DNA from: a virus | Length of the DNA stretch: 64,000 bases | Virus record (IMG/VR): IMGVR_UViG_3300032092_000009 | Span: 46,869-110,868 of that record | Reading direction: 5' to 3' (one strand) | In this document: in pieces, positions 5,246 through 60,245 of the stretch | Layout: every line of letters begins with the position of its first letter | Position numbering within the stretch: the stretch's first letter is position 1 | Position numbers and translations under genes: made by a program | Notes under the pieces: generated by a model | What the model was told of the DNA's origin: nothing | The model's input: the letters and a program-made list of their open reading frames with translations, nothing else | Databases searched by the model: none

Positions 5246-5716
5246 ATGAAAGGACTTCTAGTAAGTCTTTTCCTAATTCTTTCTATCCCCTGTTCTTCTC
5301 AAATCAATGTGATGAAGGCAGGGGATGGTTGGGATTTAAAGGTAGACTCGGCCTTAGCATTAATTGCTCAAACTGATGTCAACGCTTATACTAGAGTAAT
5401 AGATGTCTGCCAAGTAATAGACTTCTGGATTAGCCCCTATTCCTCTAATACAATCTCCCAAGATGGTGGAACTATATTTATCGCTACAGGAGACATAAAA
5501 ACGAATTCACTCAATAACCTAGCTTGTGTTATTGTACATGAAAGTCTTCACTTATACTACTTGTTACATCCAGTAGAACAGTCACAGGACGAAGAAGAAC
5601 TTAAGTGTTATATCTACGAGTTAGACTTTATAAAAAAACTACCAACCCCAGAGCCTTGGTTACAGGCAAATGCAATTGAACAATTACATAAATTAACTAA
5701 AACAAAAACAAAATGA
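5246..5716 (+). CDS. Secreted HExxH metalloprotease-like protein
   Basis: 156 residues. A Sec signal peptide (about 1-19, ending CSSQ) is followed by a small domain with HESLH at 98-102, the zinc-binding and catalytic motif of gluzincin-type peptidases. Acidic residues (DEEEL) about 20 residues later could supply the third ligand. The start ATG directly follows the previous stop, and its TGA overlaps the next ATG (ATGA), so the genes are translationally coupled. Export implies a periplasmic or extracellular target, unlike virion proteins. Function is inferred from the motif. Confidence 0.6.
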   Translation: MKGLLVSLFLILSIPCSSQINVMKAGDGWDLKVDSALALIAQTDVNAYTRVIDVCQVIDFWISPYSSNTISQDGGTIFIATGDIKTNSLNNLACVIVHESLHLYYLLHPVEQSQDEEELKCYIYELDFIKKLPTPEPWLQANAIEQLHKLTKTKTK

Positions 5717-7611
5717 ATAAACTATTTAAAGTAATCATCGGGGTGTTGACATTGTTGGTTGGCAATGTATCAGCACAAAGTTCTGCTACCTCTCCAGGTA
5801 CAGGTCATTGGGTTGTAATCGACTCAGGTTATCAAGTAGCTACAAACACTGTAGGACAGACTGTAGCTCCTCTACACTTCTACAATACCTCTACTTCTGA
5901 AAAGATCACAGGTATGCAGTTCCGTGTATTCTACGATAAGACAGCTTTCACAGCAGTTGTTCCTTCTCTTAAGATTTCTTCTACTGATCAATACTTGCAG
6001 TATGTAGATAGTAACACACAAGGTTTCTTAACTGTTACATTGGCTTACACTGGATCTAGCTCAACATTTAACTACTCTAATGGAGCTACATTTGATCTTA
6101 CCTTCACACACGCAAGCGCAGCTGTATGGAACACATTGGATTCTATTAAGACTCTTAAGGTATCAGGTGTTAAATCATTCGCTAACAAAGCCGCTACTAA
6201 CTGGGGTAACGATACTACTTTAGTAGTTTACTCTTATGGTGGTCGCTTCAACCAGAAAGTATTAAGATTTGCTGCTAAGTTTAAAAACGTAACAGGTTCT
6301 GACGCTAAGAACTTGTGGGTGTCTTTGGAAAAGAAAGCTCCTTCAGGATCTTGGACTCAAGTAGAAGCTAAAGCAACTAACTCTAGTGGTGTTGTTGTAT
6401 TCCGTAAATTCTTGGATACTACTTACTGGGATGTACGTATGGTTGTTAAGGGAGATACTATGACCCCTGGTAACGTATTCTCTACTGCAGATGCACAGAA
6501 AATTAACCAGTCTATTCTAGGTCAATATGTTGCTTCAGGATTTGACTACTACACTATGGACGTAAACGGAACTGATGGAACTATTTCTATTGCTGATGTT
6601 TACTCTGTATACGGACGTTTGGCAGGTAGATTCTCTGCATGGCCTAATTCTAAGAAGGATGTAATGTTCTTTACAGTTGCTGAGTACAACTCAATTAATG
6701 GATCTGCTACTAACTTAACTTCTACTTACTCTACTATTAATAACTTTAACTACACAATTGACGGTAGAGATTCTATCACTTACTACGTAGCTGTTAAAGG
6801 TGATGCTAACTCTACAGGATTTAAGATGGCTCGTTTAACACCTATTAAGATTGTTAACCCAGCTAATGCTAAGCGTTACATCATTGACGAGACTGTAGAA
6901 TACGACTTCCCTGCAGAAACTATTGAGATCAACATGCCTAAAGTAACTGTAGACGAAGGTAACTTGGTTAACGTACCAGTTAAAGTACTGACTAACGGAA
7001 AGAACTTAGGTGCACTACAATTAGACTTGCGTTATGACACTGCTTACTTAGAGTTTAAGAAAGTAGAAAACACTGAGAAGATGATGAAGTGGACTTCTTA
7101 CTTGAACCCTTCTAATGGAATCATTTCTTGGGGAGCTGCTGACTTGACTAACGAGAACATGCTTAATGACGGAGAGCAAGTATTCACTCTTCAATTTATC
7201 GCTAAGAAGCCACAAGACTCTTGGGCTACTGCAGCTTTGTGGACAGGTGCTAAATACGTAGGAGACAAAAACTCTAAAGACATGAACATTACCCCTGCTA
7301 TGGGAGTAATTGAAGTACGTAGAATTAACAAGGGAGTTGTTTCACTTAATGACTTGAACTCTATTATTACTTTTCCTAACCCTACAGAAGGTCCAGTACA
7401 AATACAATTCAAGATCAAAGAAGACAGCGAAGTAGACGTAGCTATCTCTGATGAGGTGGGAAGACGTGTACAAACGATTTTAAGAGAAAGAATGCCTGCA
7501 GGTAAGTACAAGTATAATACAAACCTAGATCGTCTCCCTAATGGCTTCTATGTACTTTCTGTAACAACTCAAAAAGAAATCTTACACTCCAAAATAATCG
7601 TACAAAAATGA
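5713..7611 (+). CDS. T9SS-exported cohesin/dockerin-like surface protein
   Basis: 632 residues. A signal peptide (1-21, VSA/QSS cleavage) is followed by a cohesin-like beta domain (~35-160), a prealbumin-like beta segment (~180-245), a dockerin-like pair (~247-300) with calcium loop DVNGTDGTISIAD (D283-D295, one residue longer than canonical), a linker domain shared with the lectin gene, and a second cohesin-like domain (~405-535). The last ~78 residues (from ~555) match the type IX secretion sorting domain (type A): FPNP near its start, a (V/I)xISDxxG strand, LPxGxYxLxV, and a basic end. The predicted route is Sec to the periplasm, then host T9SS to the surface. It overlaps its neighbours by ATGA junctions. 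Domain calls are from pattern recognition; ligand and purpose are unknown. Confidence 0.75.
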   Translation: MNKLFKVIIGVLTLLVGNVSAQSSATSPGTGHWVVIDSGYQVATNTVGQTVAPLHFYNTSTSEKITGMQFRVFYDKTAFTAVVPSLKISSTDQYLQYVDSNTQGFLTVTLAYTGSSSTFNYSNGATFDLTFTHASAAVWNTLDSIKTLKVSGVKSFANKAATNWGNDTTLVVYSYGGRFNQKVLRFAAKFKNVTGSDAKNLWVSLEKKAPSGSWTQVEAKATNSSGVVVFRKFLDTTYWDVRMVVKGDTMTPGNVFSTADAQKINQSILGQYVASGFDYYTMDVNGTDGTISIADVYSVYGRLAGRFSAWPNSKKDVMFFTVAEYNSINGSATNLTSTYSTINNFNYTIDGRDSITYYVAVKGDANSTGFKMARLTPIKIVNPANAKRYIIDETVEYDFPAETIEINMPKVTVDEGNLVNVPVKVLTNGKNLGALQLDLRYDTAYLEFKKVENTEKMMKWTSYLNPSNGIISWGAADLTNENMLNDGEQVFTLQFIAKKPQDSWATAALWTGAKYVGDKNSKDMNITPAMGVIEVRRINKGVVSLNDLNSIITFPNPTEGPVQIQFKIKEDSEVDVAISDEVGRRVQTILRERMPAGKYKYNTNLDRLPNGFYVLSVTTQKEILHSKIIVQK

Positions 7612-7955
7612 ACATTAAAAAAGCACTTGGTTTTAGCCAAGCAGAACCAGTAGTAGTAGATCCTAAGAATAGGTTCTATTATATGCTACAACAAATGCAA
7701 GCCAATCGTTGGAAGATCACTGCTATCGTATTAGGTTTGTTCTTCTTTATTATCCTTGGTATTAACTCAGCTGTATTCTTCGGAGTAGAGATTGCGGAGA
7801 ACTGGAAAGAAATGTTGCTTATTCTTTTTGGAGCATTCGTAGGTAATTTGAACAAAGTAGTAGACTACTGGTTTAATTCTGAAGATCGAGATAAGATGCT
7901 AATACAGAAGGTGGATGAGGAAGATGGTGAATCATTGTCAAATAATAATCCATAA
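7608..7955 (+). CDS. Holin-like membrane protein
   Basis: 115 residues. The N-terminal ~35 are cytoplasm-like, then a strong span (~38-60, IVLGLFFFIILGINSAVFF) and a second segment (~69-85, LLILFGAFVGNLNKVV), followed by DYWFNSEDRDKMLIQK. The GAF-x-N-x-V-x-x-YWFxSxxxxK pattern is characteristic of a holin family common in phages of Gram-negative bacteria. It starts inside the stop of the T9SS gene (ATGA). This is the second holin-like gene of the operon; it could serve lysis or membrane anchoring of the export cassette. Confidence 0.6.
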   Translation: MNIKKALGFSQAEPVVVDPKNRFYYMLQQMQANRWKITAIVLGLFFFIILGINSAVFFGVEIAENWKEMLLILFGAFVGNLNKVVDYWFNSEDRDKMLIQKVDEEDGESLSNNNP

Positions 7956-7959
7956 TAAT

Positions 7960-8283
7960 ATGTCAGAAGAACAAGAAGAAAGCGTAATGTCAGCTACTAA
8001 GAAAGCTATCATTGGCGCAGTCACCACTGCTGTAACTGCAGGAGGTGCATGGTTTGCCACTCACTTTGGTGGCGGTGAAGAACCTAAAGAAGAAGCTAAA
8101 ACAGAACAAGCACCCGCTGCTGCTCCTGTGATTAACTTGAATCTAGAGAACAACAACACTAACCAGCAGAAACAATCTTCAGGTGGAACTACTACTATCA
8201 TCAAAGAAAGAACAGTAGAAAAACCTGCAGCTCAATCTGCTCCTGCAACCAAACCACAAGCTGATGAGGAAGATCCTTGGTAA
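7960..8283 (+). CDS. Small membrane-anchored protein with Pro/Ala/Asn-rich tail
   Basis: 107 residues counted from ATG 7960 (MSEEQEE), 4 nt after the preceding stop; an upstream in-frame ATG at 7915 would overlap the previous gene by 41 nt. There is one hydrophobic segment at ~16-35 (AIIGAVTTAVTAGGAWFATHF), then a disordered tail rich in E, K, P, A, N and Q ending EEDPW. The 3' end overlaps the CsgG-like gene by 20 nt. No family recognised. The shape (one span plus flexible periplasmic or cytoplasmic tail) would fit a linker between membranes or a lysis accessory. Confidence 0.6.
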   Translation: MSEEQEESVMSATKKAIIGAVTTAVTAGGAWFATHFGGGEEPKEEAKTEQAPAAAPVINLNLENNNTNQQKQSSGGTTTIIKERTVEKPAAQSAPATKPQADEEDPW

Positions 8284-8971
8284 ATGGTTTAACAAGTTCA
8301 TGACTCTTGTAGTCTTGACCTTAGCAGGTTGTGGTTCTATGAAGACTACTACCGAAGAAGATAAAGTGGAGGTTAAAGACATCTCCACTGTATCTAATTA
8401 TAGTGATTCTATTAAAAAAACAGTACAAGTGGTAAGCGTAGATATGACCAAGGTACTTGCTCTTTATCCTGCTCTTCAGGAAAAGAACGTAGGTCTTGGA
8501 TTTGCAGAATCTGTTTTGGATTATTTGGATGAAACAAACAGATTTATATTTACGGAAGAAAAATCAGAGATCAAAGAAAGAATGGTCACTCAATTCAAAG
8601 CATCAAAGAAAGGCGTATTCGATGAGCCTATTGATGGCAAAGGTAAGATTAAGCCTGCTCACTACTTTGTGTATGTTACTGTGGCTGATTTTGCTGTTGA
8701 TGAAGACGAGCAAGTTGATGGCCTTAAGTCAAAAGTTGTTGTCACTACCTTCATTCGTTTACAAGTTCGCTTTGTGGACGCTAAAACAGGTCAGATCTAT
8801 ATTGGATCTGGCGAAGGAGAGTCGACTAAGACTGGTGAATCATTCTTAAAATCTTTAGATGATATGAAGTTCTCTCAAAGCACAGTAGGTAAAGCTACTC
8901 GTAAATCTTTGGAGACAGCTTGTACTAATGTGATTCAAAATCTCATTAAGTCAGGTGTATTTAAAAACTAA
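8264..8971 (+). CDS. CsgG-family outer-membrane lipoprotein
   Basis: 235 residues with a lipoprotein signal peptide (basic start, LVVLTLAGC lipobox, Cys23). The mature part follows the CsgG/HfaB pattern: VGLGFAESVLDYL...RFIFTEE...ERM (strand, helix, and the 'rF-v-er' segment), then AHYFVYVTVADF, then RLQVRFVDAKTGQIY...GEG, then a C-terminal helix with an A(T/C)xxxIQNLI pattern. CsgG proteins form oligomeric outer-membrane channels for curli-like subunits. Here the gene lies between secreted-protein genes, so it may form or assist an export pore. Pore-lining segments cannot be verified by eye; the family assignment is moderately strong. Confidence 0.65.
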   Translation: MRKILGKWFNKFMTLVVLTLAGCGSMKTTTEEDKVEVKDISTVSNYSDSIKKTVQVVSVDMTKVLALYPALQEKNVGLGFAESVLDYLDETNRFIFTEEKSEIKERMVTQFKASKKGVFDEPIDGKGKIKPAHYFVYVTVADFAVDEDEQVDGLKSKVVVTTFIRLQVRFVDAKTGQIYIGSGEGESTKTGESFLKSLDDMKFSQSTVGKATRKSLETACTNVIQNLIKSGVFKN

Positions 8972-10430
8972 AATACTAATACTATTTATGATAGCTCTGT
9001 CTCTTCGGGGGCAGAGCTTTATTTATTCGTATACAGATCCGTGTACACAGGAGTTAAAGTTTATTAACGCAGACATGTCTAGTCCTATAGTGATTGCTTA
9101 CTACGGACAGGTTAAAACTTTCTCCTACACAGAGTTACAAGATGGTACGTTTGATAATTGGATAAATAGTGTATATTTGAAGTATCAAAGTACATCACCC
9201 TGTCAAGGAGTTGGAGTAACAACTACTACAACTACCACAACAAATACTACCCTAAACATTGTAAGCAATGTTATGAACCTAGGGGCTATTTCAAATGTTG
9301 GTAGTGTAAACGTAGACGTAGGCTCAAGTACCTCTTCAGGAACAAACATAGGAACAACAAAAACCAATAATAACAATGACAATCGAACTAGTTCTCGGAA
9401 TCGTACTAGCAGTAGCTCTAGTCGTTCTAATTCTTCTGGCAGCTCGTCAGGAGAAAATGGAAAATCAAATGATGGAGGAAACTCATCAGAAAATCAAAGT
9501 GGGTCTTCATCCAACTCCAACTCCAGTGGAGAAGGCAGCGGAGAAGGTAATGGAGGAAGCAGTAGCTCCAGCTCCAGTTCCAGTAGTAGTGGAGGAAACT
9601 CCAGTGGTAGTGGAACTAGTGGAAGTAGTAGTGGAAGCTCCCAAGGTGGAGGCGGAAGTGGTGGTAAAACCGAAGAAAAAACGGAAGTACAAACCGAGGA
9701 ACCCACAGAACAAAAAGTAGAAGAAACTAAAACTGAGACTCAAAAATCTCAGTCTACTGGTACTGCAAAAGCTGCAGGAAAAGCTAAAGCCGAAGTTGCT
9801 AAGCCTGCAATCTTAGTAACTGGTGATTTAGTTGGTATTCAGACTAAGTCTGATGGAGCACAAGATGCAAGAGGTACTGCCTCTTTTACTAGAGTAAAGG
9901 GAGACGGTACTTCTTCTCTTGGGTTTTCAGCTGACTACATGGTTAACGCTAGAATAGGAAATATCTCTTGCGTACGTTCCTGGATAGGAGCAAACAAAAA
10001 AGGACACAAACATATCAGTGTTGTATCTGATGGACTTAGCATAATGCCTAAGTCAATGTCAAACACTCTTCTATTTGTAAGAGTTAATTCAGTTAAAAAC
10101 TTTACAGCGCTCTACGGAGCAGCGGGAACCTACGGTAAACTATTTGGAGAAGAAATGATTTCTACCATTGCCATAGGAGGTTTTATGTACAAAGGTAAAC
10201 TTACTAAGAGTATAGACGCTACAGTTATTATGGCTGGTATCTATTCTCCTTATTCTAAGTATTACACAGAGTCTATATTTGAAGCTAAGCCTATTGTTAT
10301 TCCTTTCTTCAACTTTACATATAGAATGACCAAGACTTTTGGTTTAGGTATTACTGGAGGAGGAACATACGTAGCAGGACAGGATATATTGAACTTTCAA
10401 TTATTAATGGGAGCTAAGTTATTAATATGA
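8955..10430 (+). CDS. Exported protein: Ser/Gly-rich linker plus outer-membrane-like C-terminal domain
   Basis: 491 residues from GTG 8955, which gives a full signal peptide (K-x-K, hydrophobic core, LRGQS); the ATG at 8988 would remove its basic start. An N-terminal domain (~21-85) is followed by a Thr/Asn/Val stretch, a low-complexity tract of S, G, N, then E, T, K (~140-255), and a C-terminal ~215-residue beta-rich domain with alternating aromatic strands (YMVNARIGNI, FFNFTYRM, LGITGGGTYVAG) ending FQLLMGAKLLI, typical of outer-membrane beta barrels. The gene overlaps the CsgG-like gene by 17 nt and the lectin gene by 4 nt. The low-complexity tract coincides with a second frame at 9376-9720. 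Confidence 0.65.
   Translation: MYLKTKILILFMIALSLRGQSFIYSYTDPCTQELKFINADMSSPIVIAYYGQVKTFSYTELQDGTFDNWINSVYLKYQSTSPCQGVGVTTTTTTTTNTTLNIVSNVMNLGAISNVGSVNVDVGSSTSSGTNIGTTKTNNNNDNRTSSRNRTSSSSSRSNSSGSSSGENGKSNDGGNSSENQSGSSSNSNSSGEGSGEGNGGSSSSSSSSSSSGGNSSGSGTSGSSSGSSQGGGGSGGKTEEKTEVQTEEPTEQKVEETKTETQKSQSTGTAKAAGKAKAEVAKPAILVTGDLVGIQTKSDGAQDARGTASFTRVKGDGTSSLGFSADYMVNARIGNISCVRSWIGANKKGHKHISVVSDGLSIMPKSMSNTLLFVRVNSVKNFTALYGAAGTYGKLFGEEMISTIAIGGFMYKGKLTKSIDATVIMAGIYSPYSKYYTESIFEAKPIVIPFFNFTYRMTKTFGLGITGGGTYVAGQDILNFQLLMGAKLLI
9376..9720 (+). CDS. Candidate overprinted membrane protein inside the Ser/Gly tract
   Basis: A 114-codon ATG frame, shifted +1 relative to the 491-residue gene and wholly inside it. 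It reads as a coherent protein: an N-terminal transmembrane helix (IELVLGIVLAVALVVLILLAA), a short charged part, then a Pro/Val/Glu/Ala-rich stalk and a basic end (VKPKKKRKYKPRNPQNKK). Such stalk-and-basic-tail endings are seen in single-span phage membrane proteins. Its limits (host residues ~141-255) coincide with the host frame's low-complexity region, as expected if one frame was overprinted on the other. It could still be a compositional by-product of GGA/AGT/TCC repeats. Confidence 0.45.
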   Translation: MTIELVLGIVLAVALVVLILLAARQEKMENQMMEETHQKIKVGLHPTPTPVEKAAEKVMEEAVAPAPVPVVVEETPVVVELVEVVVEAPKVEAEVVVKPKKKRKYKPRNPQNKK

Positions 10431-11410
10431 GGTGGTTAGTTATTCTATTCTTTATTGTAAGCCCTCTAAGTGCACAATTTACTTATTCTGGATACTTGTA
10501 TAATGCAAATGGATCTGGGGCCAACAACGTAGCTATAAAACTGTATAGAAGAACTAACTCAACTATTACAGGCTTTACTAATCAGCAGAACTACAACGGG
10601 CACTCTTATTACCGTTCTACAGGAACTGCATTTTGGACTACAGCCAAGACTAACTGCTCTAATATGGGAGGGCACTTAGTAACTATTACAACTTCAGGAG
10701 AGCAAAGTTTTCTATATAATCTCTGGCCTTCTGGATGGATAGGACTAACAGATGAAGTAACAGAAGGTACTTGGAGATGGGTTACAGGGGAAAGTTATTC
10801 TTATTCTAACTGGAACTCTGGAGAACCTAATAATGCAGGTAACGAAGATTATGTTCAATTTGTATCTAATGGTAGGTGGAATGACTTACCTAATAACTAC
10901 GCACTTCCTTATGTACTAGAGTTTGAGTATTTAGTAACTACTTCTTCTTGGACACTCTACAAGACTATATATACTAACTCTTCGGGTTACTATTCTATTT
11001 CTGAGACTTACGATCCTTCTAAGGAATACTACATTGAGATAGATGCTCCTACCAGAATTCAATCTTATACAACTTCAGACATTCAAGGAGTATCTAATAT
11101 TATTCTCGGAAGGAGTGTAAGGAATGGTTTGTCTTTTCATATGTTTGATGTTAATGAAGACGGAGTAATTTCTATAGCAGATAAGTATTATGTAGCTGCG
11201 AGGAAAGCTGGTTTATTCTCTAGATGGAGAACAGCTCCTGATGTAAGGATCTTTACTACTGCTCAATACAATTCAATTAAAGCAGCAACAACAAACGTAA
11301 GAGCAACCTATCCTGGAGTTACTACTCATACTACAACTACCTTAACCTCAGGGGGAAGTTTAAACTTATATATAATAGCTCCTGGCTATGCTGGAGCAGT
11401 AACCTACTAA
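10427..11410 (+). CDS. Secreted C-type lectin with dockerin-like module
   Basis: 327 residues: signal peptide (1-16, PLSAQ), a short beta segment, a C-type lectin domain (~58-166), a linker, and a dockerin-like module (~215-275). The lectin domain has WIGL, the EPN motif (133-135) that in animal and bacterial C-type lectins binds calcium and mannose/GlcNAc-type sugars, and WND (151-153). Most canonical disulfide cysteines are absent. The dockerin-like loop DVNEDGVISIAD (D241-D252) has the canonical calcium spacing. The following ~40 residues (DVxxFTxAxYNSI...ATN) are shared with the 632-residue T9SS protein. No T9SS sorting domain is present, so surface retention would need a partner. Confidence 0.75.
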   Translation: MRWLVILFFIVSPLSAQFTYSGYLYNANGSGANNVAIKLYRRTNSTITGFTNQQNYNGHSYYRSTGTAFWTTAKTNCSNMGGHLVTITTSGEQSFLYNLWPSGWIGLTDEVTEGTWRWVTGESYSYSNWNSGEPNNAGNEDYVQFVSNGRWNDLPNNYALPYVLEFEYLVTTSSWTLYKTIYTNSSGYYSISETYDPSKEYYIEIDAPTRIQSYTTSDIQGVSNIILGRSVRNGLSFHMFDVNEDGVISIADKYYVAARKAGLFSRWRTAPDVRIFTTAQYNSIKAATTNVRATYPGVTTHTTTTLTSGGSLNLYIIAPGYAGAVTY

Positions 11411-11412
11411 CT

Positions 11413-11859
11413 ATGAAAAAACTATTTATACTTTGCTTTCTAGTCACTATGATGACTTCTCTGAGTGCTCAATGCTATAAAGTTGACACTGTAACATCAA
11501 TTGCTTCTGTAACAGAAATAGGAGGAAGACCTATAATCTTTGGAGCACAAACAACTTTAGAAGAGATTGCAGCCTCAAAGTACCAACTATGTAATGAGGG
11601 CAGTCCTATTTCAGGAACAATCAAATCCATTGCTATGCCTGAAGAACTCTTAAATATCGTAGGGTTACAGTTTCTTAAGAGAGACTATATTGTAATCACT
11701 GAGATAAATCTAAATGGAGTAACTGTTCTTGGAGAGGCTAAAAAGACTGTCTATGTTAATGCTATGTTTGTTTCTGTAGAAGGTATTCCTCATAACAGAA
11801 AAGCTTATTCTAAGGCATTGGAGAAGTCTTTCAAGAATGGATTTGAGAATTTGAAATAG
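11413..11859 (+). CDS. Small secreted protein of unknown function
   Basis: 148 residues with a signal peptide (1-19, SLSAQ cleavage). The mature protein is a mixed alpha/beta domain with two cysteines near each end of its first third (CYKV and QLC), a central strand pair (DYIVITEINLNGVTV) and a C-terminal helix (YSKALEKSFKNGFENL). It is the last gene of the exported cassette, 2 nt after the lectin stop, and ends in TAG. No family recognised; CsgE- or CsgF-like accessory function is only a guess from its company. Confidence 0.6.
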   Translation: MKKLFILCFLVTMMTSLSAQCYKVDTVTSIASVTEIGGRPIIFGAQTTLEEIAASKYQLCNEGSPISGTIKSIAMPEELLNIVGLQFLKRDYIVITEINLNGVTVLGEAKKTVYVNAMFVSVEGIPHNRKAYSKALEKSFKNGFENLK

Positions 11860-46129: not shown

Positions 46130-49100
46130 ATGGCAAAAATAATCTGCCCTACCAGGGAAAATAAAGACTTTTCAAACTTAAGCAATGCTCTTGGTAGTGA
46201 TGCCTTGGCTAGATATGTATGGTATAAGAATAGCAATCTTCCTTTAAACTTAACTGAGGATGCTGAAGGTAATATTGTTTCTAGTGAGATCTACGATAGA
46301 ATCTTAAACGAAGTTGCAGATGGTAATGAAAGTCTTGCTTTAGGGATTACTGCTATCATGCACTATCCTAGCTTCCAAGAGAAGTATGGAGAAGAAGACC
46401 CTGCTTTTACTGTAGACTACATTAAGCAAGAAGCACAAGATAAAGCAGATAAAGCAGCTAAGAGACAAGCACAACTTCTTGAAGAAAAGATTATTCCAGG
46501 CACCAAGACTCTTTATATTCAGTCTCCTGAAGGTGATGTTATCTATACTCAAGAAGAAGGAAAAGAAATTTTTGACAGTCTAGAGTACCTTGCCTCTACT
46601 AAGAAGAGTTGGAAAGCAGTATTAGATGCTTTAGCAGAAAGATTTACAGACATCCAAGCTAAAATTAAGAATAGTGCAGTTGATCCTGAGTCTAATGTTA
46701 CTCCACAAGAAATTGCCATTGCTAAAAACTTAGTTAATATTCTTAAGAACTGGCCCCAAGTAAAAGCTTGGTATCTTAGTCAGGATACAAACTTTGGCTT
46801 AGAGTTGACTGAAGACGAAGTTAATCCAGATACAGGAGGAAACGTCTACAATAAGAATGCACATGATCGTAGTCAGATGGATCTAGCATCTGCTCAAGTT
46901 ATTAAACTAGTACAGTCTCTTCCCAAATACAATAAACTTACTACACAGAATCGTAAGGATGTAAAGTCAGGAAAGAAAAGTATTACTGATTTCCAAGTTA
47001 TAAGTAACCTTACAGGTTTTCCTATTGTAGGAAACTTCTCTACTAACTGGAATGTACTTACTTCTAGTTTATCTGGAATTACTAAGTACGATAAGATTCT
47101 CGAAGAGTTGACAGTTGTTGCTCAAGAATATCCTCAGTTTAGAGATTTGGTTAACATGCTTCCAAAGGAAGATGTACAAGATGTTGACTTGAATACAGCA
47201 AACTTTGTAGCCTCATTTGTACAAACAGTATCTCTCCCTGAGATTGCTGCTTACCAATTATCTATAGGTAAAAAGAATGACGGTAAACAAACTAAGGTTG
47301 TTACTAAGACCTTTCAATTAGGTACTAGAACAGTTGACAACCTTATTAAGTATTTTGACGAAGACTACTTTAGGTCTAATCCTAAATATGGAATGCTTAA
47401 CGATGAGGGAAAGACTGTACTTAACATCCCTAAGATTCTAGAAGACTTTGCCAATATTAAAGACATTAGGGCATTTTTTGCTAATGAAGGAGATATAAAC
47501 TCTGCTGAAGGTATAAAATTACTGTACAATATCCATAAGTTTTATAATGCTTTAGGAGTTATACCTACTAACGCTCTTTATTTAAAAGACAAAAAAGCAC
47601 TATATGCCTTCTTGAAGGACAATACTTTTCATGTAAGAGAACTTTACGATAAGTTAGAGGCAAGTAAAGATAACAAAACAGTTACTCAACCTCTTCAGTT
47701 TTTGTCTCGTCCTCAAGGAAGTGGAAAAGCATTAGGTCCTAAGTTTGATATCATTAACTCTATCGTAGGATACTACGGTAAGTTTGAAAGAGAGTTTGCT
47801 TCTGGTTCTTACTTTAACCCTGAAGACAAACTACAATACAATCGTGTACAATACTTCTATCTAACTCAAGTAACTAATGCACTTAACAATGTAGCAAGTT
47901 ATAACGAGTTAATTGCTATGCCAGAGTTTGCTCACCTAGACGTAAGATTGAATCCTAATATATTAGGTTCTGTATGGCTAGAGAGGATGTTTGGTATCAG
48001 CATTAAAGGTAAGACACCTGGCCAACTAAAGAAGGACTTGGATGCGGGTAAGCAGTTTCCTAGACTTAAAACTAAGTTTAGTAAAGAACCATTTAAGATA
48101 AACATTGTAAACTACTCAGGTCTGAGTATTGATGCAGATGTTAAGGAGGGTATAACTACTACTGAGCTTACCTCAGAAGATAAGATTGTACAAGACTTTT
48201 TATCTTTCTTTGGTTCTGGTATAGTTGAGAACATTCGTTTTGGTGATAAAGGAACTTCTTATGCTACAGTTACCTCAGGTAAGGTAGAGGAAAGGATTTA
48301 CATTCCTCTTAACTCTGACGTACTTGGTATGATGGAGAAGCCTAGTTCTGTTATAGAACAGTCTTTGGTAGATCAGTTTAATGCTTATCTTACTTCAGAA
48401 GTCTTTCGTGTACTTGCCGTAAACAAAGAAACTAAGAAGAATACATACACTAAGAATGGCAGACAGTTATTCTTATTTAAAGATATCATCCCTAAGGAAG
48501 ACTACGATGCTTTGACAAGTGAAGACAGTAACGTAGTAAAAGAAGCTTATGCAAGAGTATCTAGTAATCTTCCAACCTACTTAGGTCAATACTTCACTAA
48601 ACAGACTCAAGAGTATAAGAAGCGTCTGATGGATTCTGTACTTGGAGACAACACTGCTATCAAGACAACTATTACCGAAGAACAGAAAGAAGAACAATTG
48701 GTAAACTCTTTATCTGCTTTGGGATTTGTAGATCCTGCTTTATTTAAAAAGAATCAACTTACTAAGCAAAACTTAGACTACGTTATTGCAAACTACCTTA
48801 AGAATGACTTTATCCATAAAGCAGAGTTCATGAAGGTATTTGTAGGAGACATTTCTAACTTCCAAGTTAAAGGTGACTTCCGTGAGGTATTCAAACGTAT
48901 TCCTCTTACATCTTCTCCTGGCTTTATCTTCCAAGATAATCCAGTAGTGATGTCTCACTTAAACAATAGTAGTGCAACTAACGGACTACATAAAGCGCTT
49001 ACAGGAGCTGCACAGAAGTTCCGTAAGACTGTAAGGACTGTTATCTTTAATGATGTCAACACATTCAGTAAAGAAGACTGGCCTACTTATAGAAATGCTT

Positions 49101-52100
49101 TAGGTCTTCCTGATACCATGGAGTATCAAGAGTACGTAAACTCTCCTAAGGAAGCAGATGCACAGGGTTTAGTTAGTTTAGACTTCTATCGTAACTATCT
49201 TATTGGGTTAGGACAGTGGTCCCAAGAACAAGAGAATGCTTACTTAAATGAAATCGAGATCTTTAAGATCCTTAACAAGACTGAGAAGACAGAAGAAGAC
49301 TACGCTAAAATGCAAGAACTAAAAGCTAGCATGAACTATGTAGGTTTTCCTCCTTTGAAGTTAGGTCACTATGGTCCTATTGTAGAGGATGTTAAACTTA
49401 CTGCATTACATAAGTATTCTTTGGCTCCTATGATTCCTTCTATGATTGCTGGTACTCAGTTAGAGGAATTGAATAAGCAAATGATTGCTAAGCAGATTGA
49501 CTATGCAACATTCAACTCAGGATCAAAAGCGTCCAATTTTGGAGACGCTTTGGACTTTTATGTACCAGATGCAGACAATGCAGGCACACTTAAAGTGAAT
49601 CCTGACATCAAGGGAAACAACGTTACCACTCTACACTTGACCAATCTTAAACAACAGCAGTACATTGCTCCTAAGTTTAAGAACGAAGCTACTCTAGCTA
49701 CTCAGATGGTTAAGCTTATCTTTGGTGACTTCTTTGCTCAGGGTAACTTATCTGATCTAAATGCTAGTACTGCTAAGAATATCTCTGACCTCTATAAAGA
49801 CTATACCAGCATACTAGGGAATATCATTGGAGCAGAGGAAGCAAACTTGTTTAACAAGTTAGGTATTACTAAAGATGCTCAAGGTAACTTTGTAAACTTT
49901 GATAACAAGAAGTTCTACAACTTCCTTAAAGGAGAGTTGGATAAAAGAGATACTAGTGCTTCTCTTAAGCGTTATATCCAATTAGATGAAGCTGGCAATA
50001 TCAAGTATCCACTTGACGCTACTAAGAATAGAGCAGAGATTGAAAACATCTTACTGTCTATTATTAATAACAAGATTATCTCTCAGAAGATTCACGGAGA
50101 GTCTTATGTTCAGATGGCATCTACTGCTCAAGGTAACACAAGATTCACTAAGCCTACTGAAGAACAAATTAAAAAGTATGGTATCAACGGACTACGATTC
50201 TATCGTAAAGGTCCAGAGGGTACAGAACCTGCAGATGTAAAGATTGCTTTCAATCCTAAGAAGCATGCAGGTCTACTTAATCTTACATTTAAAGGTAAGA
50301 AGATTGGAACTATAGATAACCTTAACAAGATTCTTAAGTCTAGTAACCAAGATGCTATTGATTGGGTTAACCAACACAGTAAGAAACTAAGTTTAGTAGG
50401 TGTACGTATTCCAGTACAAGGTCTAAACTCTATGGAGTACTTCCGTGTAAGAGAGTTCTTGCCTACTAGTGCAGGTCCTGTTATTGTTGTTCCTGCTCAG
50501 ATTGTAGTTAAGTCTGGATCTGACTTTGACATTGATAAGTTGACAATGTTTGAACCTAAGTTAACTGCTAACGGAGAGTTGGTTGATGACGGAGGATTCA
50601 CTCTTAAAGATTACAATGCTAATCTTCCTAGCCAAAAGGAGTCAATGAGAATGCTTAAAACTCTTACTGAGGTTAAACAAGCTTTGGTAGAAACTTTAGC
50701 AGCGACTCCTGCTTACGTTAATAAAAAGCAATTAGAAAAAGAAATCCAAGAGTTGACTGAGTCTATCTCTACTACAGAGGAAGAGATCAGCAAGTTCTCT
50801 AATAAGAAGATGAACTTGGAAGAACTTCAGGCTTTGATGTCAGAAGGATCTAACGACAAAGAAAACTTAATTAAACAAAAGATTGAAGAAGCAAAAGCTC
50901 TTGTTAGAACAGGTGACCTAGCAGCTTCACTTCCTGTTCTTAAGTCTCTTAAGTCAGAGATTAACGATTACGTAAGTACAGTTAACGGAGTACAAAACTT
51001 CAAGCAAGCTAACATCAACAAGTTGATAGATGTATTTAGTTCTGTTCTTTCTATGAAAGAGAACTACGATAAGCTTGTACTTCCTAATACTAACACAGTA
51101 TTGACAGAGATCTCAGATAAGCTACAAGCTAATCCTATCACTTCTACTGAGTTGTTTAGTCCTCTTACATCTAATCGTGTATATGGAGATAATATCGAGT
51201 CTAAGAAAGCCTTAGGTATTGATGCTAAACTTAACACAATGCAGAAGGAGTTCCAGATTGCAGGACTAATTTACACAAGTGAATTTGCTAGTATGTATCC
51301 TTTTGCTGCTAACCGTGTAGAAAAGGGTATTAGTTTAGGTGAGAAGACTCTTACTGATGGTACCTCTATCTCTAGAGTAATTAGTGAAGCGATTAACGGG
51401 CACGTAGATATTGCAAAAGAAGATTGGATTATCTTGTTGGGATTAGATAAAGCTAAGACTCCACTATTCCACTCTATGATTCTTGCAGGTACCCCTGTAA
51501 AAACTGCCTTAGACTTTTTGAATAAGCCAGTAGTTAAGCACGTACTTAAAGAGTCTACTAGAGGACCTTTGTTCAAACAGCTAGGAGTTAGAAGAGGAAG
51601 ACTTGTTAAGATGACTTTCAAAGAAGTCTTAATGGATACTCTAAAGAGTCTTAACATATCTAAAGAGGCAATAAGTATTGTTAATAGTTCTATTGTTAGT
51701 GACGAGAGTGGAACTATAAAAGTAAAACCTACTATAGAAGCTTTGAATATAGCTTTGAATGAAGGTAATTTTGCAAATGAGTCAGATGCTTCTCAAGTAA
51801 AAGATATAGTAGATCTGTTTGTAGTTAAGGAAATGCAGAGTGCTATACAACAGTTGACTGGCTTGGTAGACTATAACACTAGAAGATTCCAAAACTCTTA
51901 CCAAGTTAAAGCAGATAAGATTAGTGCAGCAAAGATTCAAGAGAGTTTTAATGCATCAGGACTTGACAAACTAACTAATAAGTCTGCTCTTTCTAAGTTT
52001 AATCAATCTAACACTATTGAGTCTTTGATGCCTCAAGTGTTTGATGTATCAAATCATCCTAGTGTGTTAGATGCTATTACAACTTATTCTAATAACGCTG

Positions 52101-53224
52101 GAATCTTTACTGAGGAGGACTTAGTTAAAGCCTCTAGAAAAGTTAAAGACAACTACCTTGTTACTATGGTACAGTTGTTTGGCGTAGATGGTACAGGAAC
52201 TAAACTACAAGATAAGTTTTTCTCTAATGCAGGTCTTTTGAATAAAAATAACCCAGAGAATTTATCTAAGAGGATTGCTGATATCAGTGAGAAGTATAGT
52301 GACTTATCTAAGAATCAAATCTTGGCTAATCTTTATACAGCAGAAACAACTTCAAATAACATTATCTTTAGACTTAGGAACGCTAACTTGGATAGTTACT
52401 TGATTGGTGAGTACGAGAAAGCATTCATAGAGGGACTTAATGATGTACGTGAAGACGTACGTAGTGTATTTGAGAATCTAGGTCTAGGGACTTTCCTTCA
52501 GTTTGGTTTTGCTAAAAACTCTTATGGACTCTCCCAAGTAGTTCCTTACGAGACTTATGTAACTCATACTACTCAAGCAGTCGCTAAGCTTAAAGAAGGA
52601 CTTAACAATCCTAGCTTCGCAGAGTCTATGTCTAAGTACGTAGGTTTGATGACTTACTTCAATGATAGTAGAAACGTTCCTACTTTGGTTCTTAACTCAA
52701 GAGTAGCTAGAGTTAGTTATGAGAACGACTTCTTAGGTACTTTAGGTAGATTAGAGTCTGAGGTTGAAGATAGTCTTAGAAACATAGCTAACTTTAAAGG
52801 CAAGACTTATACTAACTTTGATAACATTAAGTCAAAGGGTAAGTTCAGATCTTTGCCTATTCAGTTGGTAGATATTATTCCTACTAAGAAGACTACCCCT
52901 GTTGCTATGAGAAACCTAGAGGGTACTATTCTTATTAATGAGAAAGAGTTCATTAAGAAGTTTAACGATAAGGCTTGGACTAAACCTGCTAAACAACTAG
53001 ATGATAGCTTTGCTACTCCTTTAGCTTCAGATGAATTCCAATCACTAGAAGAGTTCTTGACCTTTGCTTTGATACATGAAGCTAAACACAACACTATCAA
53101 ACAAGAAGAAGGTGAAACTAAGGGACAATATGAGGACAGAATTAACCAAGCGGCTTTACAAGACTTACGTTACAACTACGGTAAGGGAGAATCAAGCAGT
53201 GTAATAGACCCATTTAAATGTTAA
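46130..53224 (+). CDS. Virion-packaged RNA polymerase of crAss-like type
   Basis: 2364 residues. The segment KSGSDFDIDKLTMF contains the DxDxD triad (Asp1465, 1467, 1469), which in the characterised crAss-like virion RNA polymerase (phage phi14:2) coordinates the catalytic magnesium in a double-psi beta-barrel active site. Length is close to that enzyme (about 2200 residues), and the placement among cargo genes agrees. A second barrel would be expected beyond ~1600 but cannot be delimited by eye. Near the C-terminus HEAKH (2316-2320) is a zinc-peptidase-like HExxH motif. Expected role: it is ejected with the genome and transcribes early genes. Start at 46130 gives the expected MAKIICPTRE-like beginning. 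Confidence 0.85.
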   Translation: MAKIICPTRENKDFSNLSNALGSDALARYVWYKNSNLPLNLTEDAEGNIVSSEIYDRILNEVADGNESLALGITAIMHYPSFQEKYGEEDPAFTVDYIKQEAQDKADKAAKRQAQLLEEKIIPGTKTLYIQSPEGDVIYTQEEGKEIFDSLEYLASTKKSWKAVLDALAERFTDIQAKIKNSAVDPESNVTPQEIAIAKNLVNILKNWPQVKAWYLSQDTNFGLELTEDEVNPDTGGNVYNKNAHDRSQMDLASAQVIKLVQSLPKYNKLTTQNRKDVKSGKKSITDFQVISNLTGFPIVGNFSTNWNVLTSSLSGITKYDKILEELTVVAQEYPQFRDLVNMLPKEDVQDVDLNTANFVASFVQTVSLPEIAAYQLSIGKKNDGKQTKVVTKTFQLGTRTVDNLIKYFDEDYFRSNPKYGMLNDEGKTVLNIPKILEDFANIKDIRAFFANEGDINSAEGIKLLYNIHKFYNALGVIPTNALYLKDKKALYAFLKDNTFHVRELYDKLEASKDNKTVTQPLQFLSRPQGSGKALGPKFDIINSIVGYYGKFEREFASGSYFNPEDKLQYNRVQYFYLTQVTNALNNVASYNELIAMPEFAHLDVRLNPNILGSVWLERMFGISIKGKTPGQLKKDLDAGKQFPRLKTKFSKEPFKINIVNYSGLSIDADVKEGITTTELTSEDKIVQDFLSFFGSGIVENIRFGDKGTSYATVTSGKVEERIYIPLNSDVLGMMEKPSSVIEQSLVDQFNAYLTSEVFRVLAVNKETKKNTYTKNGRQLFLFKDIIPKEDYDALTSEDSNVVKEAYARVSSNLPTYLGQYFTKQTQEYKKRLMDSVLGDNTAIKTTITEEQKEEQLVNSLSALGFVDPALFKKNQLTKQNLDYVIANYLKNDFIHKAEFMKVFVGDISNFQVKGDFREVFKRIPLTSSPGFIFQDNPVVMSHLNNSSATNGLHKALTGAAQKFRKTVRTVIFNDVNTFSKEDWPTYRNALGLPDTMEYQEYVNSPKEADAQGLVSLDFYRNYLIGLGQWSQEQENAYLNEIEIFKILNKTEKTEEDYAKMQELKASMNYVGFPPLKLGHYGPIVEDVKLTALHKYSLAPMIPSMIAGTQLEELNKQMIAKQIDYATFNSGSKASNFGDALDFYVPDADNAGTLKVNPDIKGNNVTTLHLTNLKQQQYIAPKFKNEATLATQMVKLIFGDFFAQGNLSDLNASTAKNISDLYKDYTSILGNIIGAEEANLFNKLGITKDAQGNFVNFDNKKFYNFLKGELDKRDTSASLKRYIQLDEAGNIKYPLDATKNRAEIENILLSIINNKIISQKIHGESYVQMASTAQGNTRFTKPTEEQIKKYGINGLRFYRKGPEGTEPADVKIAFNPKKHAGLLNLTFKGKKIGTIDNLNKILKSSNQDAIDWVNQHSKKLSLVGVRIPVQGLNSMEYFRVREFLPTSAGPVIVVPAQIVVKSGSDFDIDKLTMFEPKLTANGELVDDGGFTLKDYNANLPSQKESMRMLKTLTEVKQALVETLAATPAYVNKKQLEKEIQELTESISTTEEEISKFSNKKMNLEELQALMSEGSNDKENLIKQKIEEAKALVRTGDLAASLPVLKSLKSEINDYVSTVNGVQNFKQANINKLIDVFSSVLSMKENYDKLVLPNTNTVLTEISDKLQANPITSTELFSPLTSNRVYGDNIESKKALGIDAKLNTMQKEFQIAGLIYTSEFASMYPFAANRVEKGISLGEKTLTDGTSISRVISEAINGHVDIAKEDWIILLGLDKAKTPLFHSMILAGTPVKTALDFLNKPVVKHVLKESTRGPLFKQLGVRRGRLVKMTFKEVLMDTLKSLNISKEAISIVNSSIVSDESGTIKVKPTIEALNIALNEGNFANESDASQVKDIVDLFVVKEMQSAIQQLTGLVDYNTRRFQNSYQVKADKISAAKIQESFNASGLDKLTNKSALSKFNQSNTIESLMPQVFDVSNHPSVLDAITTYSNNAGIFTEEDLVKASRKVKDNYLVTMVQLFGVDGTGTKLQDKFFSNAGLLNKNNPENLSKRIADISEKYSDLSKNQILANLYTAETTSNNIIFRLRNANLDSYLIGEYEKAFIEGLNDVREDVRSVFENLGLGTFLQFGFAKNSYGLSQVVPYETYVTHTTQAVAKLKEGLNNPSFAESMSKYVGLMTYFNDSRNVPTLVLNSRVARVSYENDFLGTLGRLESEVEDSLRNIANFKGKTYTNFDNIKSKGKFRSLPIQLVDIIPTKKTTPVAMRNLEGTILINEKEFIKKFNDKAWTKPAKQLDDSFATPLASDEFQSLEEFLTFALIHEAKHNTIKQEEGETKGQYEDRINQAALQDLRYNYGKGESSSVIDPFKC

Positions 53225-53228
53225 AGAT

Positions 53229-53747
53229 ATGGCAAGTTGCGATTTAAAAACAACAAACAGAGAGTACATGATTGCAAAGGGAGCTATAGTACAAGGTTCC
53301 CTTAAGATACCGAATGAACGTCTATTCGATCTACATAATGCAGAGATCAGAGATTCTGCTAACCAACGTTATAATTTAAATAACGAGGAACTTCCTTTTA
53401 CTAAAACTGAAAGACGAATTACTAGAAACGATTATCTTAGAAGAGGGTCTGACTACTTTGTAGAGTGGGGATTCAATGATAAGTTCTTTGATAATATTAG
53501 ACCTATAGTAGAAATGTACAAGTCTTTTGATGAGGATATCTACGATGAGACCCCTACTACTATCCCTACTTACAGTCAAATGCAGATTTCCTTTGAAGAA
53601 AGCATAGACGATAATATCATAGTAAAGGAAAGTCCTATTAGGACAACCTTTCCTTACGAAGCCGAAGACTATCTTGCAGATGTTAAGGCAGAAACTAAAG
53701 CCAACTTAACTAGACTTCAGTTTAAAGAAGAGGCTTGTAATATTTAA
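53229..53747 (+). CDS. Unknown protein between cargo genes
   Basis: 172 residues, 4 nt after the polymerase stop. It is charged and aromatic (RRITRNDYLRRGSDYFVEWGFNDKFFDNI), with an acidic middle (SFDEDIYDETPTT) and a helical end (EAEDYLADVKAETKANLTRLQFKEEA). One Cys at each end. No family recognised. Its position between two cargo genes suggests a chaperone for, or a minor part of, the ejected complex. Confidence 0.55.
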   Translation: MASCDLKTTNREYMIAKGAIVQGSLKIPNERLFDLHNAEIRDSANQRYNLNNEELPFTKTERRITRNDYLRRGSDYFVEWGFNDKFFDNIRPIVEMYKSFDEDIYDETPTTIPTYSQMQISFEESIDDNIIVKESPIRTTFPYEAEDYLADVKAETKANLTRLQFKEEACNI

Positions 53748-53748
53748 T

Positions 53749-53756
53749 TATATTTG
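53749..53756 (+). promoter_or_regulatory. -7 promoter element
   Basis: TATATTTG, one base after the preceding stop and 22 nt before the ATG at 53779. No matching -33 element, so weak or activator-dependent. Confidence 0.4.
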
Positions 53757-53778
53757 TATAATAACTTAAGATAAAATA

Positions 53779-56700
53779 ATGTCCTGTAAAGCAACTATAA
53801 AATCTCCTATTACTGGTAAGACAGTGATGTCTACTACATATTACCAATTGACTAATGTATTCGATAAAGAGAAAGCAGTAGATATCTATAATAGTATGTA
53901 TACTCCTGGATTCCAAGATCTTCTTGGTTTTGATTGGACTACCAACAAGGAGTATAGAGAAGAACTTAACTTAAATGGAGAGCCTAAAATTGAGTATCTT
54001 AATGAGATTCTTGGATTAGAACTATCTGATTATCAATTAGATGCAATCAATTCTGAGGAAGATGCTTTGACTCAGTTGGATCCTATGCAGGAGTTTCCTA
54101 CATATGATGAAGCTGTATTAGTTGCAGCAAACTTTAATCTTAATCCAAGATACAAGAACATTTCAGCAGAAGTAGTTCGTACAGACAAAGGCTTTAGGGT
54201 GTCTATTGGGTTGTTTAAGGCTTCTGGTATAGAGTCTAAGGAGACCTTAAGTAAACTTAACTTTGGTGAAATTATTTCTCAGTTCTTTCCAAATAGTAAC
54301 TCTAGTTGGGATGATGTAGTATCTGGTTTGCTTACCAGTGATAGACTTTCAGACACTCAGAAGACCGTTCTTTCTAAATTAAAAGAACTTCAAGACATTA
54401 ATCCTAGTGTAAAACTAGTAATCTTTGACGATACTGATTCTATGGATGCAGGTCAAGTTGCATTCTATGATAATAACTCACGCACTATCTACATAGGTAA
54501 GACAGTAAGTGAGAGCATGGATGATTCTAAGCTCATTACAGACCTCATCCACGAGTCTATGCACGCTTACACCATTAAGGCTTTGAATGAACCTGTTACA
54601 GATCAGGAGAAGGCATTTAAGGCAGAGATGGAAAAGGTATACAACTCTTACTTGAAGAAGTTTCCCAACCTAGTTGTTAACTACGGGTTTACTAACGTAG
54701 AAGAGTTTGTAAGTGAGGTAGTATCTAATCCTCATTTTAGAGCAGCATTAACTACACAACAAGAATCTCTTAAGGAAGATAAAGGCTTTTTAAGGAACAT
54801 GTTAGAGAAAATAACAAACTTCTTAAAAGGTTTGTATACAGATTTACCTAACATAGAACAGATTGATTCTACAATCAATAGCTACTTAGATCATTTGATT
54901 GAGACCAGGGATATGCCTATTACCCAAGGAGAATACGATCTAAGATTTAAGAGTGAGAAGTATAATCCTAATGGCCTTACAGATCTAGAAAGATTTCCTG
55001 AGTTGCAGAAGTTCGTAAACTTTATTAATAAGAATACTTCTAGTAAGATGTGGGGACAGATTACACAGTCTCTTAAGGAGATTGATGCTACTCTTAGAAG
55101 TACAGGAAGACTACAGGAACGTTTTAGTGACATCAACTCTACTAACGCTAAAGATATTCTAGCTAATACAATTGCTTATCTTAACACAGCTCTTACCACC
55201 CTTACTACTGTACAGAATCAACTTGATTTGTATAAGAAGAATGCTTCAGAGTTTGAGGACTTTGCTATTATTAAAACTTTTAACTACGCTAAGAACTTAA
55301 GCGGAGTAATCAGAGAGCAGATCAATGAATTCGAAAAAGAGTTTAATGCTATCTTTAGTTTAGAGGATATAACAAACATGCAGGATAGAGCTACTGCACA
55401 AGAAGCTCTTGAACTGGCTATTCCTGATTATGCACAGGTAGTTAAAGAACTTATGCAGACTATTGAAGAGACTCGTAAGTTAGCAGACTCTATTGATAGC
55501 AACTATAACAATGCAGTAATTGCTCCTATTGCTAGGGAGTTGGCTGCTTCTTTTGGTGAAGAAGCTACAGTAGAAGGTAAGAAGAGAGTAAAAGAACAAC
55601 TTACTGCTTTGACTGCGGCTAAAGCCAAGGCAGATGCTAATGGTAAAACTGCTTTATCTAAAGTACTTGCCAAAGAGATCGAAGACCTAAGACAATTAGA
55701 AAGATTTATTCCTACTGCAAAGAACATCGAAGAACTTCTTAAGAACGATAAGAAGTACGGAAGGGAGACTAGCTTTTTGGGTATGTGGATTAACAACGCA
55801 GTACAAGGAAAGAATCCTACTGTACAGATTGTTAAACAGTTTATTGATAAGGCTACCGCTGAAGCACAGGTAAACTCAGGTAAGTTTAGTAAGCGTGCTC
55901 AAGATATCTTTGATAGACTTCGTAACCTAAGAGGTAAGTTGGCTACTGAAGGTATGACTTATCAAACTCTTTACAAAGGGTTTACTAGGGTAGTTGAAGT
56001 TCTACATAAACAACCAGATGGTTCTCTTAAGAAAGTAAAGCAAGCAGTACTAAACACTAAATTAAAAGAAGAGGAATTCCAAAATGATCTTAAACTTCTT
56101 TTAGAAAGAGAAGAGCAGGCTATTAAGTCAGGTGATCAATCTGCTATAGATAACACTAAGGCTGCTACTAATAAATTCCTAGAGGATTACGCTTTACGTC
56201 CTTATACAGACGAATACTATAAGATTCAAGAGTTACTTACTGAAGAAGCAAAAGAAGCTAGGGAAGCTATCTTGTCTGAGATTAACTTCTTATCAGAAGA
56301 TTTAAATCCTGATGAGACTACTAAGGATGAGATTAAAAGATTGTTGACTGAGTTTAATCGCTTAGGTTCTTTGTACTACTCTAACGGAGATGAGAAGCCA
56401 GTAGGAAGTAAAGACAGAAGAGTAGCAGAGTCAATCATTGCGTGGAAGAAGGAAAGAAATAACCAAGATGTACTTACTTATGATAACGTTAGTAAGCGTA
56501 AGCAGTGGCAGATACAAAAGAATGAAATAGACGAAGAGTACAATAAAATCCTTAAGAGGAAGAATGCCTCAGATATTTCTATGTCTATGAGAGCATTTTC
56601 AGACTTGCAAGACGATAATCTTGCAGAAGAGAACGAAAAAATTACTAAGGAGTTTGAAGAAGCAAAGAAAGTAAGGGATCAGTGGTACGAAGAGAATACT

Positions 56701-59808: not shown

Positions 59809-59819
59809 CTCCTTAGTCT
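59791..59819 (+). terminator. Hairpin containing the cargo gene stop in its loop
   Basis: AGACTAAGGAG, loop AAAGTAA, CTCCTTAGTCT: a perfect 11-bp stem. The loop contains the stop TAA (59806-59808). No U-tract follows. Confidence 0.7.
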
Positions 59820-59827
59820 ACTATCTC

Positions 59828-59857
59828 TTGACTTTATTTTAAATTAAAGTAAATTTG
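59828..59857 (+). promoter_or_regulatory. Promoter of the second lysis module
   Basis: TTGACTTT at 59828 and TAAATTTG at 59850-59857, 22-nt spacing, 49 nt before the next ATG. Confidence 0.7.
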
Positions 59858-59906
59858 TGTATACGGACTTAGGTCGGACTTAGAGTCGTAAAAGATAATA
59901 TACATT

Positions 59907-60245
59907 ATGGAAACTCATGACATTCTCAGAGAGCAATCAAAGAAACTTCGTCAAATCGAAAGTCAACTTTGTTGCATCAATGCTAGCGTAACTGCGGAAG
60001 CAGGTATGAATGGTAGCAAAGTTATTTCAGGTACTTCTCCTGTTACAGGAAGCTTTCAGTACTTTGTAGTAAACGCATCTGCTGTAGTTACAGCAATCTT
60101 AGATCAAAGCGGTAATAGTCTTATGACTTCACTAAGTTTATCTGGGATTACTTTAGCTCCAACAATGAAGATTAGCGTACCTAAAGGTACAACTATCTCT
60201 TCTATCACACTTTCTTCTGGTTCAGTAATCGCTTACAACGCTTAA
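59907..60245 (+). CDS. Small fibre-like or decoration protein
   Basis: 112 residues. An N-terminal helix (LREQSKKLRQIESQ) with CC at ~22-23 is followed by a beta-rich domain of Val/Ser/Thr strands (FQYFVVNASAVVTAIL...TISSITLSSGSVIAYNA). This helix plus beta-strand cap is like short phage decoration or fibre proteins. Its last base overlaps the first of the holin start codon (TAATG). Confidence 0.5.
   Translation: METHDILREQSKKLRQIESQLCCINASVTAEAGMNGSKVISGTSPVTGSFQYFVVNASAVVTAILDQSGNSLMTSLSLSGITLAPTMKISVPKGTTISSITLSSGSVIAYNA

Follow-up and report, generated by a model that had tools for sequence, protein, structure and literature searches.

Cargo for the type IX secretion system (T9SS) has already been reported from phages, both in Cryophage, where one cargo bears a PA14 domain and superinfection exclusion was suggested (PMC7468147), and in BACON-bearing gut phages (PMC6949934). 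Proteins with a glutamine at position +1, a pattern known as the Bacteroidetes Q-rule (PMC5837995), are also known in phages of Porphyromonas gingivalis (PMC10367356). The locus described here lies within a 64,000-nucleotide stretch of viral DNA (the window) that spans positions 46,869 to 110,868 of the IMG/VR virus record IMGVR_UViG_3300032092_000009, which is 110,868 bases long, and it centers on a 632-residue open reading frame at 5713–7611 on the plus strand. The product, which we term the scaffold, carries a signal peptide, a first cohesin, a transthyretin-like domain, a dockerin-like segment, a second cohesin, and a type A T9SS sorting domain. The original prediction, made for a reading frame that is present where it had been placed, was of a sorting domain on a phage protein; this stands but is incomplete, as the domain appears to anchor a cohesin scaffold in a conserved multi-gene module. 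The C-terminal tag and the N-terminal signal had been described, whereas the cohesins, the dockerin-like segment, and the operon had gone unmentioned. We consider it moderately probable that the phage encodes a T9SS-anchored scaffold displaying swappable adhesins on the infected Bacteroidota cell.

Export signals of the scaffold

The scaffold begins with a typical Sec signal peptide (MNKLFKVIIGVLTLLVGNVSA; residues 1–21; 5713–5775, plus strand), recognized by inspection, that ends in VSA directly before Q22. Cleavage is expected before this glutamine under the Q-rule, and the N-terminal Sec signal foreseen for this protein is thus seen with glutamine at +1. The other end of the protein (residues 551–632; 7363–7608, plus strand) contains FPNP (residues 554–557), SDEVG (residues 579–583), and LPNGFYVLSV, followed by SKIIVQK. 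Both of the profile searches that had been proposed for this C-terminal domain (CTD) were positive, with scores above their curated cut-offs, and bear out its assignment to the type A class: PF18962 (Por_Secre_tail) matches residues 554–630 with 38.2 bits (cut-off 27, E 1.7e-9) over profile positions 2–75 out of 75, and TIGR04183 matches residues 554–631 with 34.4 bits (cut-off 23). In an AlphaFold model built with 21 homologues, exactly seven strands are predicted in residues 551–630, as expected for the seven-strand sandwich (pLDDT 63–88 over this block, mostly 80–88). When 11 diverse scaffold homologues are combined into a profile, it matches solved cohesins and also two chains of 75 residues with known structure, namely 8glj_D, which bears the name of a Por secretion sorting domain, and 8glk_D, which bears that of Endonuclease I. 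The scaffold domain is the sole one of its kind found in the complete record.

Relatives of the scaffold are encoded on at least 91 IMG/VR contigs, and the 80 that were kept are 59–99% identical to it. Among 59 distinct homologues with a complete CTD, ten positions of this domain (P555, N556, P557, G583, P595, G597, Y599, G611, Y613, and K627) are identical in 59/59, and Q22 is likewise kept in every one. Because these residues are fixed while the median identity of the CTD to that of the window is only 51%, the sorting-domain match is not a product of chance. Eight of the ten (P555, N556, P557, G583, G597, G611, Y613, and K627) remain invariant in the 11-sequence set, whose members are 27–64% identical. 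Two residues shown to be important in P. gingivalis, a Gly in motif Lb3b4 and, in the last strand, a Lys in motif C-t (PMC11285876), have G583 and K627 as their equivalents; this correspondence was assigned without superposition, from the G-R-R context and the place of each residue in the order of strands. Distant scaffolds with 27–46% identity retain a cohesin together with the sorting domain, and eight of the nine scanned pass the PF18962 cut-off, the ninth scoring 26.8 against 27 bits.

No part of the scaffold changes faster than its two export signals. The signal peptide has a median identity to the window of 33% and the CTD one of 51%; for the remaining domains it is 79–91%. Where dN/dS could be computed, medians across the scaffold domains are ~0.08–0.18, with the CTD at ~0.18, which indicates that every such domain, the CTD included, is under purifying selection. 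We infer that the export signals adapt to differing hosts while the scaffold stays, in which case a fast signal peptide and CTD beside slow other domains would be the expected pattern. A report that CTDs of different species are incompatible lends some help to this idea (PMC11285876).

The predicted export of the scaffold by the host T9SS is well supported by these sequence features. A T9SS-positive member of the Bacteroidota as the host of the window phage is consistent with the evidence, because the Q-rule is obeyed in every homologue and the only cultured relative, the phage vB_FspM_immuto (immuto), infects Flavobacterium sp. LMO8. A search of 84,980 species genomes gave a sole match, a short contig from a Sphingomonadaceae metagenome-assembled genome whose scaffold is 85% identical. 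This contig is most likely misbinned phage DNA, and we rejected it as uninformative on the host.

Cohesins, dockerin-like parts, and the swappable display gene

Pfam Cohesin (PF00963) matches the scaffold with 59.2 bits (cut-off 24.1) in two stretches. The better of these, residues 405–534, lies in cohesin 2 (approximately residues 402–540; 6916–7332, plus strand), and the other marks an N-terminal cohesin-like domain (approximately residues 22–180; 5776–6252, plus strand) with predicted strands between residues 33 and 175. The cohesin part is recognizable in the AlphaFold model, for which the best Foldseek matches are solved cohesins such as 2jh2 (TM 0.82 by target length). Between the two cohesins sit the transthyretin-like domain and the dockerin-like segment (approximately residues 251–310; 6463–6642, plus strand). 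The latter has a single EF-type loop, DVNGTDGTISIAD, at residues 283–295, in which the calcium-ligand positions D283, N285, and D295 are invariant across the 11-sequence set, and AlphaFold predicts helices at 258–271 and 293–304 with low confidence.

A dockerin-like part recurs in a second gene of the same operon. The product of this display gene (10427–11410, plus strand) has a signal peptide, a C-type lectin domain at residues 70–163 (Lectin_C, PF00059; 62.1 bits, cut-off 22.6), and a transthyretin-like and dockerin-like tail with the loop DVNEDGVISIAD. As the lectin protein carries a signal peptide without a sorting domain, docking onto the scaffold would be its simplest route to the outside. 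Each of 64 loci compared contains exactly one display gene, whose head varies among relatives while the dockerin-like tail stays: the head is an unnamed domain in 24, Lectin_C in 23, PA14 in 10, and GEVED in 6, and is truncated in 1. Heads are exchanged even beside scaffolds that are 96–98% identical. In one pair of loci (L040 and L076), the scaffold is 98% identical and both the lipoprotein and the last gene of the module are 99% identical; the tails of the display proteins are 77% identical and their heads are unrelated. Used by itself as an independent bait, the lectin head gave 79 new loci, all of which (79/79) have the dockerin-like tail and the downstream module gene; the second cohesin of the scaffold is visible in 48 of them, and the remainder mostly start inside the module. 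Between the window and immuto, the lectin heads are 70% identical and the tails 36% identical, a contrast that may reflect either recombination or stronger constraint. At L130 6842–8008, a second exported protein beside the lectin gene has a start that resembles the unnamed display head, and some phages may carry two display proteins.

The scaffold of immuto is split into two separately exported genes. The product of gp014 has a signal peptide, a cohesin-like domain, and a dockerin-like part and lacks a sorting domain; that of gp015 has its own signal peptide, a cohesin (36.7 bits), and a sorting domain (34.6 bits). A pattern in which genes are fused in one genome and separate in another is a classic sign of interacting partners. 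Since the protein is fused elsewhere and encoded by two genes in immuto, the two halves of the scaffold may bind each other. At 512–2404 of locus L149, an in-frame stop interrupts the scaffold between the dockerin-like part and cohesin 2, near the point at which the immuto protein is split; it could be an error, a pseudogene, or a site of readthrough.

Several observations weigh against docking and display. The AlphaFold model of the scaffold is weak overall (pLDDT 55), with very low confidence over the dockerin-like segment, in which the first calcium loop is degenerate so that one canonical loop is left. The type I dockerin profile, Dockerin_1 (PF00404), stays below the Pfam cut-off in all proteins scanned (best 20.6 versus 22.9 bits), with sub-cut-off matches in several scaffold homologues and 6 of 16 members matching at E up to 1. 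The tail fibers of the phage yielded no domain resembling the display heads, which leaves a receptor shared by heads and fibers unsupported; nor was a head-like domain found in other genes of the window, in the left arm, in immuto, or in the loci, and this candidate was set aside. The degenerate loop and the low dockerin scores would suit a scaffold that acts alone as a T9SS-exported adhesin, its cohesin and dockerin-like parts being structural and non-docking and the lectin protein staying periplasmic, and cohesin folds do exist outside cellulosomes, as in the GH84C cohesin of Clostridium perfringens (2w1n). We nevertheless regard this explanation as unlikely, given that the scaffold and the dockerin-tailed gene always co-occur and share the same tail, that D283, N285, and D295 are invariant, and that gp014, as one product of the split in immuto, has no sorting domain at all. 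We therefore favor cohesin–dockerin docking of the display protein on the scaffold, as inferred from these sequence comparisons.

The module and its relatives

The scaffold and display genes belong to a tightly packed run of overlapping genes at 5246–11859, most of which encode exported proteins and whose order is kept in relatives wherever the contig is long enough. All lie on the plus strand. The first gene (5246–5716), which overlaps the start of the scaffold, encodes an exported protein with an HESLH motif of the HExxH type. The scaffold is followed by a small inner-membrane-like protein (7608–7955) and by another small protein (7915–8283), which has a single membrane segment and a tail rich in Pro and Ala and which is conserved in the module and as gp016 of immuto. 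Next comes a highly conserved lipoprotein that is weakly CsgG-like (8264–8971), and then an exported Ser/Gly/Asn-rich protein (8955–10430) that has a Thr run, a low-complexity middle of variable length, and a conserved, beta-rich C terminus of ~210 residues that by inspection resembles an outer-membrane barrel. The display gene and a small exported protein homologous to immuto gp019 (11413–11859) close the module.

We do not claim the lipoprotein as a CsgG. CsgG (PF03783) has no match in the window protein itself, the best being E 0.00019 in a distant homologue; hhalign of the family against CsgG gave a probability of 12%; and Pfam on one or several members, comparison of profiles with the CsgG of E. 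coli and of phages, a PDB search, and AlphaFold (pLDDT 39) are suggestive at best. The immuto homologue lacks a lipobox. The protein is possibly another phage-encoded component of an outer-membrane pore.

The same module recurs in immuto as gp013–gp019, annotated merely as lectin, cohesin, or hypothetical proteins, with identities to the window of 50% for the lectin protein, 41% for the lipoprotein, and 25–31% for the scaffold halves. Immuto is a T4-like myovirus annotated with T4-type gp20, gp23, sheath, and baseplate proteins. The portal of the window phage instead matches many crAss-like phages at ~25% identity over 80–90% of its length, and a comparison of the two gene sets yielded no capsid or portal match. 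Outside the module, the matches are to a holin, thymidylate synthase, an exported nuclease, an endolysin-like gene, and two small conserved reading frames, along with tail or structural proteins, the latter matched weakly and over short stretches. Judged by these gene sets, the two phages are unrelated and share the module, which therefore appears to travel as a unit.

This distribution bears on two further explanations. One holds that the module serves lysis, with the holin, the endolysin, and the HExxH, membrane, lipo-, and outer-membrane proteins disrupting the outer membrane and the scaffold helping. In the window, the module does come straight after an endolysin-like gene, as part of the same tightly packed series; in immuto, however, it sits among genes for replication and nucleotide metabolism, distant from the holin and endolysin, and lysis offers no obvious role for a swappable lectin head, so that we regard this explanation as quite improbable. 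The other would have the proteins decorate the virion, the sorting-domain fold being merely a structural Ig-like domain. A tail-fiber gene lies just upstream of the module and Ig-like domains are common on virions, yet all of the proteins bear Sec signals, as judged by eye, with glutamine at +1, the T9SS-specific positions are fixed, and the module is common to an apparently crAss-like phage and a T4-like myovirus without detectable shared head or portal genes. We consider virion decoration very improbable indeed.

An exported DNA/RNA non-specific endonuclease, directly upstream of the module in immuto (9935–10513), is 60% identical to its counterpart in the unrelated window phage (G000 30396–31043, L085) and could cut incoming DNA in the periplasm, and a cluster of genes for glycosyltransferases and sugar modification at 49172–59988 of immuto (L089) is possibly another way to remodel host surface glycans. 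In the window itself, a 2364-residue protein encoded at 46130–53224 contains SGSDFDIDKLTMF, by eye a DxDxD-type motif, presumably as in the RNA polymerases of crAss-like phages. A sigma-70 promoter scan found no excess of sites over shuffled sequence, and PHROGs offered no useful family for the scaffold. A bacterial origin of the module was not found in a scan that used only two short peptide patterns.

A proposed surface-display model and its comparison with known systems

Taken together, these features suggest a model in which the scaffold would cross the inner membrane via Sec and be cut before the glutamine, a step well supported by sequence. Its type A sorting domain would then direct it to the host T9SS, by which it would cross the outer membrane and become attached outside. 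There, phage proteins expressed alongside it, foremost the lectin protein of the same operon, may dock by their dockerin-like tails onto its cohesins, and the infected cell would thereby show one of several interchangeable heads of glycan-binding or adhesin type. What such heads might do is more speculative. As the likeliest benefit we would guess, tentatively, that they mask or crowd the glycans of the host surface, so that other phages would be hindered from superinfecting and progeny from re-adsorbing. Alternatively, the module could make infected cells stick to others and bring new hosts near the burst, by sibling capture or aggregation. Lectin, PA14, and GEVED are adhesin-type domains, the module has its weakly CsgG-like lipoprotein, and phage curli genes have been proposed to serve sibling capture where waters are dilute (PMC7029224), but no clumping was observed with the curli-bearing phage Melnitz (PMC9004378). 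The data here do not separate adhesion from masking, and we hold capture to be a rather unlikely explanation. In the broadest version of the display model, an entire surface-display machine would be shared and exchanged among phages of aquatic Bacteroidota that are not related to one another, as a phage counterpart of the cellulosome and a head-swapping coat for superinfection exclusion, and the scaffold's own dockerin-like segment could let scaffolds chain into arrays; we offer it as a possibility that is doubtful as a whole.

These results extend a sorting tag on a single phage protein to a conserved, transferable module in many environmental phages, and they suggest that use of the host type IX system to reshape the surface of the infected cell is common among lytic phages of Bacteroidota. 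The module may also serve as a sequence-based predictor of T9SS-positive hosts for uncultured phages, and immuto with Flavobacterium sp. LMO8 provides a cultured phage–host pair open to direct testing. In the open-access literature, we found no report of a cohesin–dockerin-like display module in phages, although others could exist; the individual parts are of known kinds, and it is their arrangement that appears new.

Cryophage and the BACON-bearing gut phages resemble this locus in that variable genes encode phage proteins tagged with type A sorting domains, and Cryophage does so further in its PA14 cargo and in the benefit suggested for it. There, each cargo has its own sorting domain, whereas here one conserved scaffold has it, and the variable head belongs to another protein, which ends in a dockerin-like tail and lacks a sorting domain. 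The module gp013–gp019 of immuto comprises the same gene set, with homologues that are 25–50% identical, but its scaffold is in two genes, its lectin gene comes first, and its genome is T4-like. The Llp protein of phage T5 (PMC9586334) is also an envelope protein exported by a lytic phage during infection, with the same proposed benefit. Llp, however, is a small periplasmic lipoprotein that acts on FhuA, in contrast to the large scaffold predicted here to reach the outside, for which exclusion is hypothetical. The curli-like clusters of pelagimyophages and Melnitz (PMC7029224, PMC9004378) share with this operon a CsgG-like lipoprotein and exported proteins, although the CsgG similarity is weak here and neither CsgF nor curlin was identified. 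Like a cellulosome scaffoldin, the protein places cohesins on an anchored chain for interchangeable modules with a common dockerin-like tail. It differs in being phage-encoded, in having two cohesins and no carbohydrate-binding module that we could find, in its putative docking, in its T9SS anchor as opposed to an S-layer or sortase anchor, and in apparently presenting binding heads in place of enzymes.
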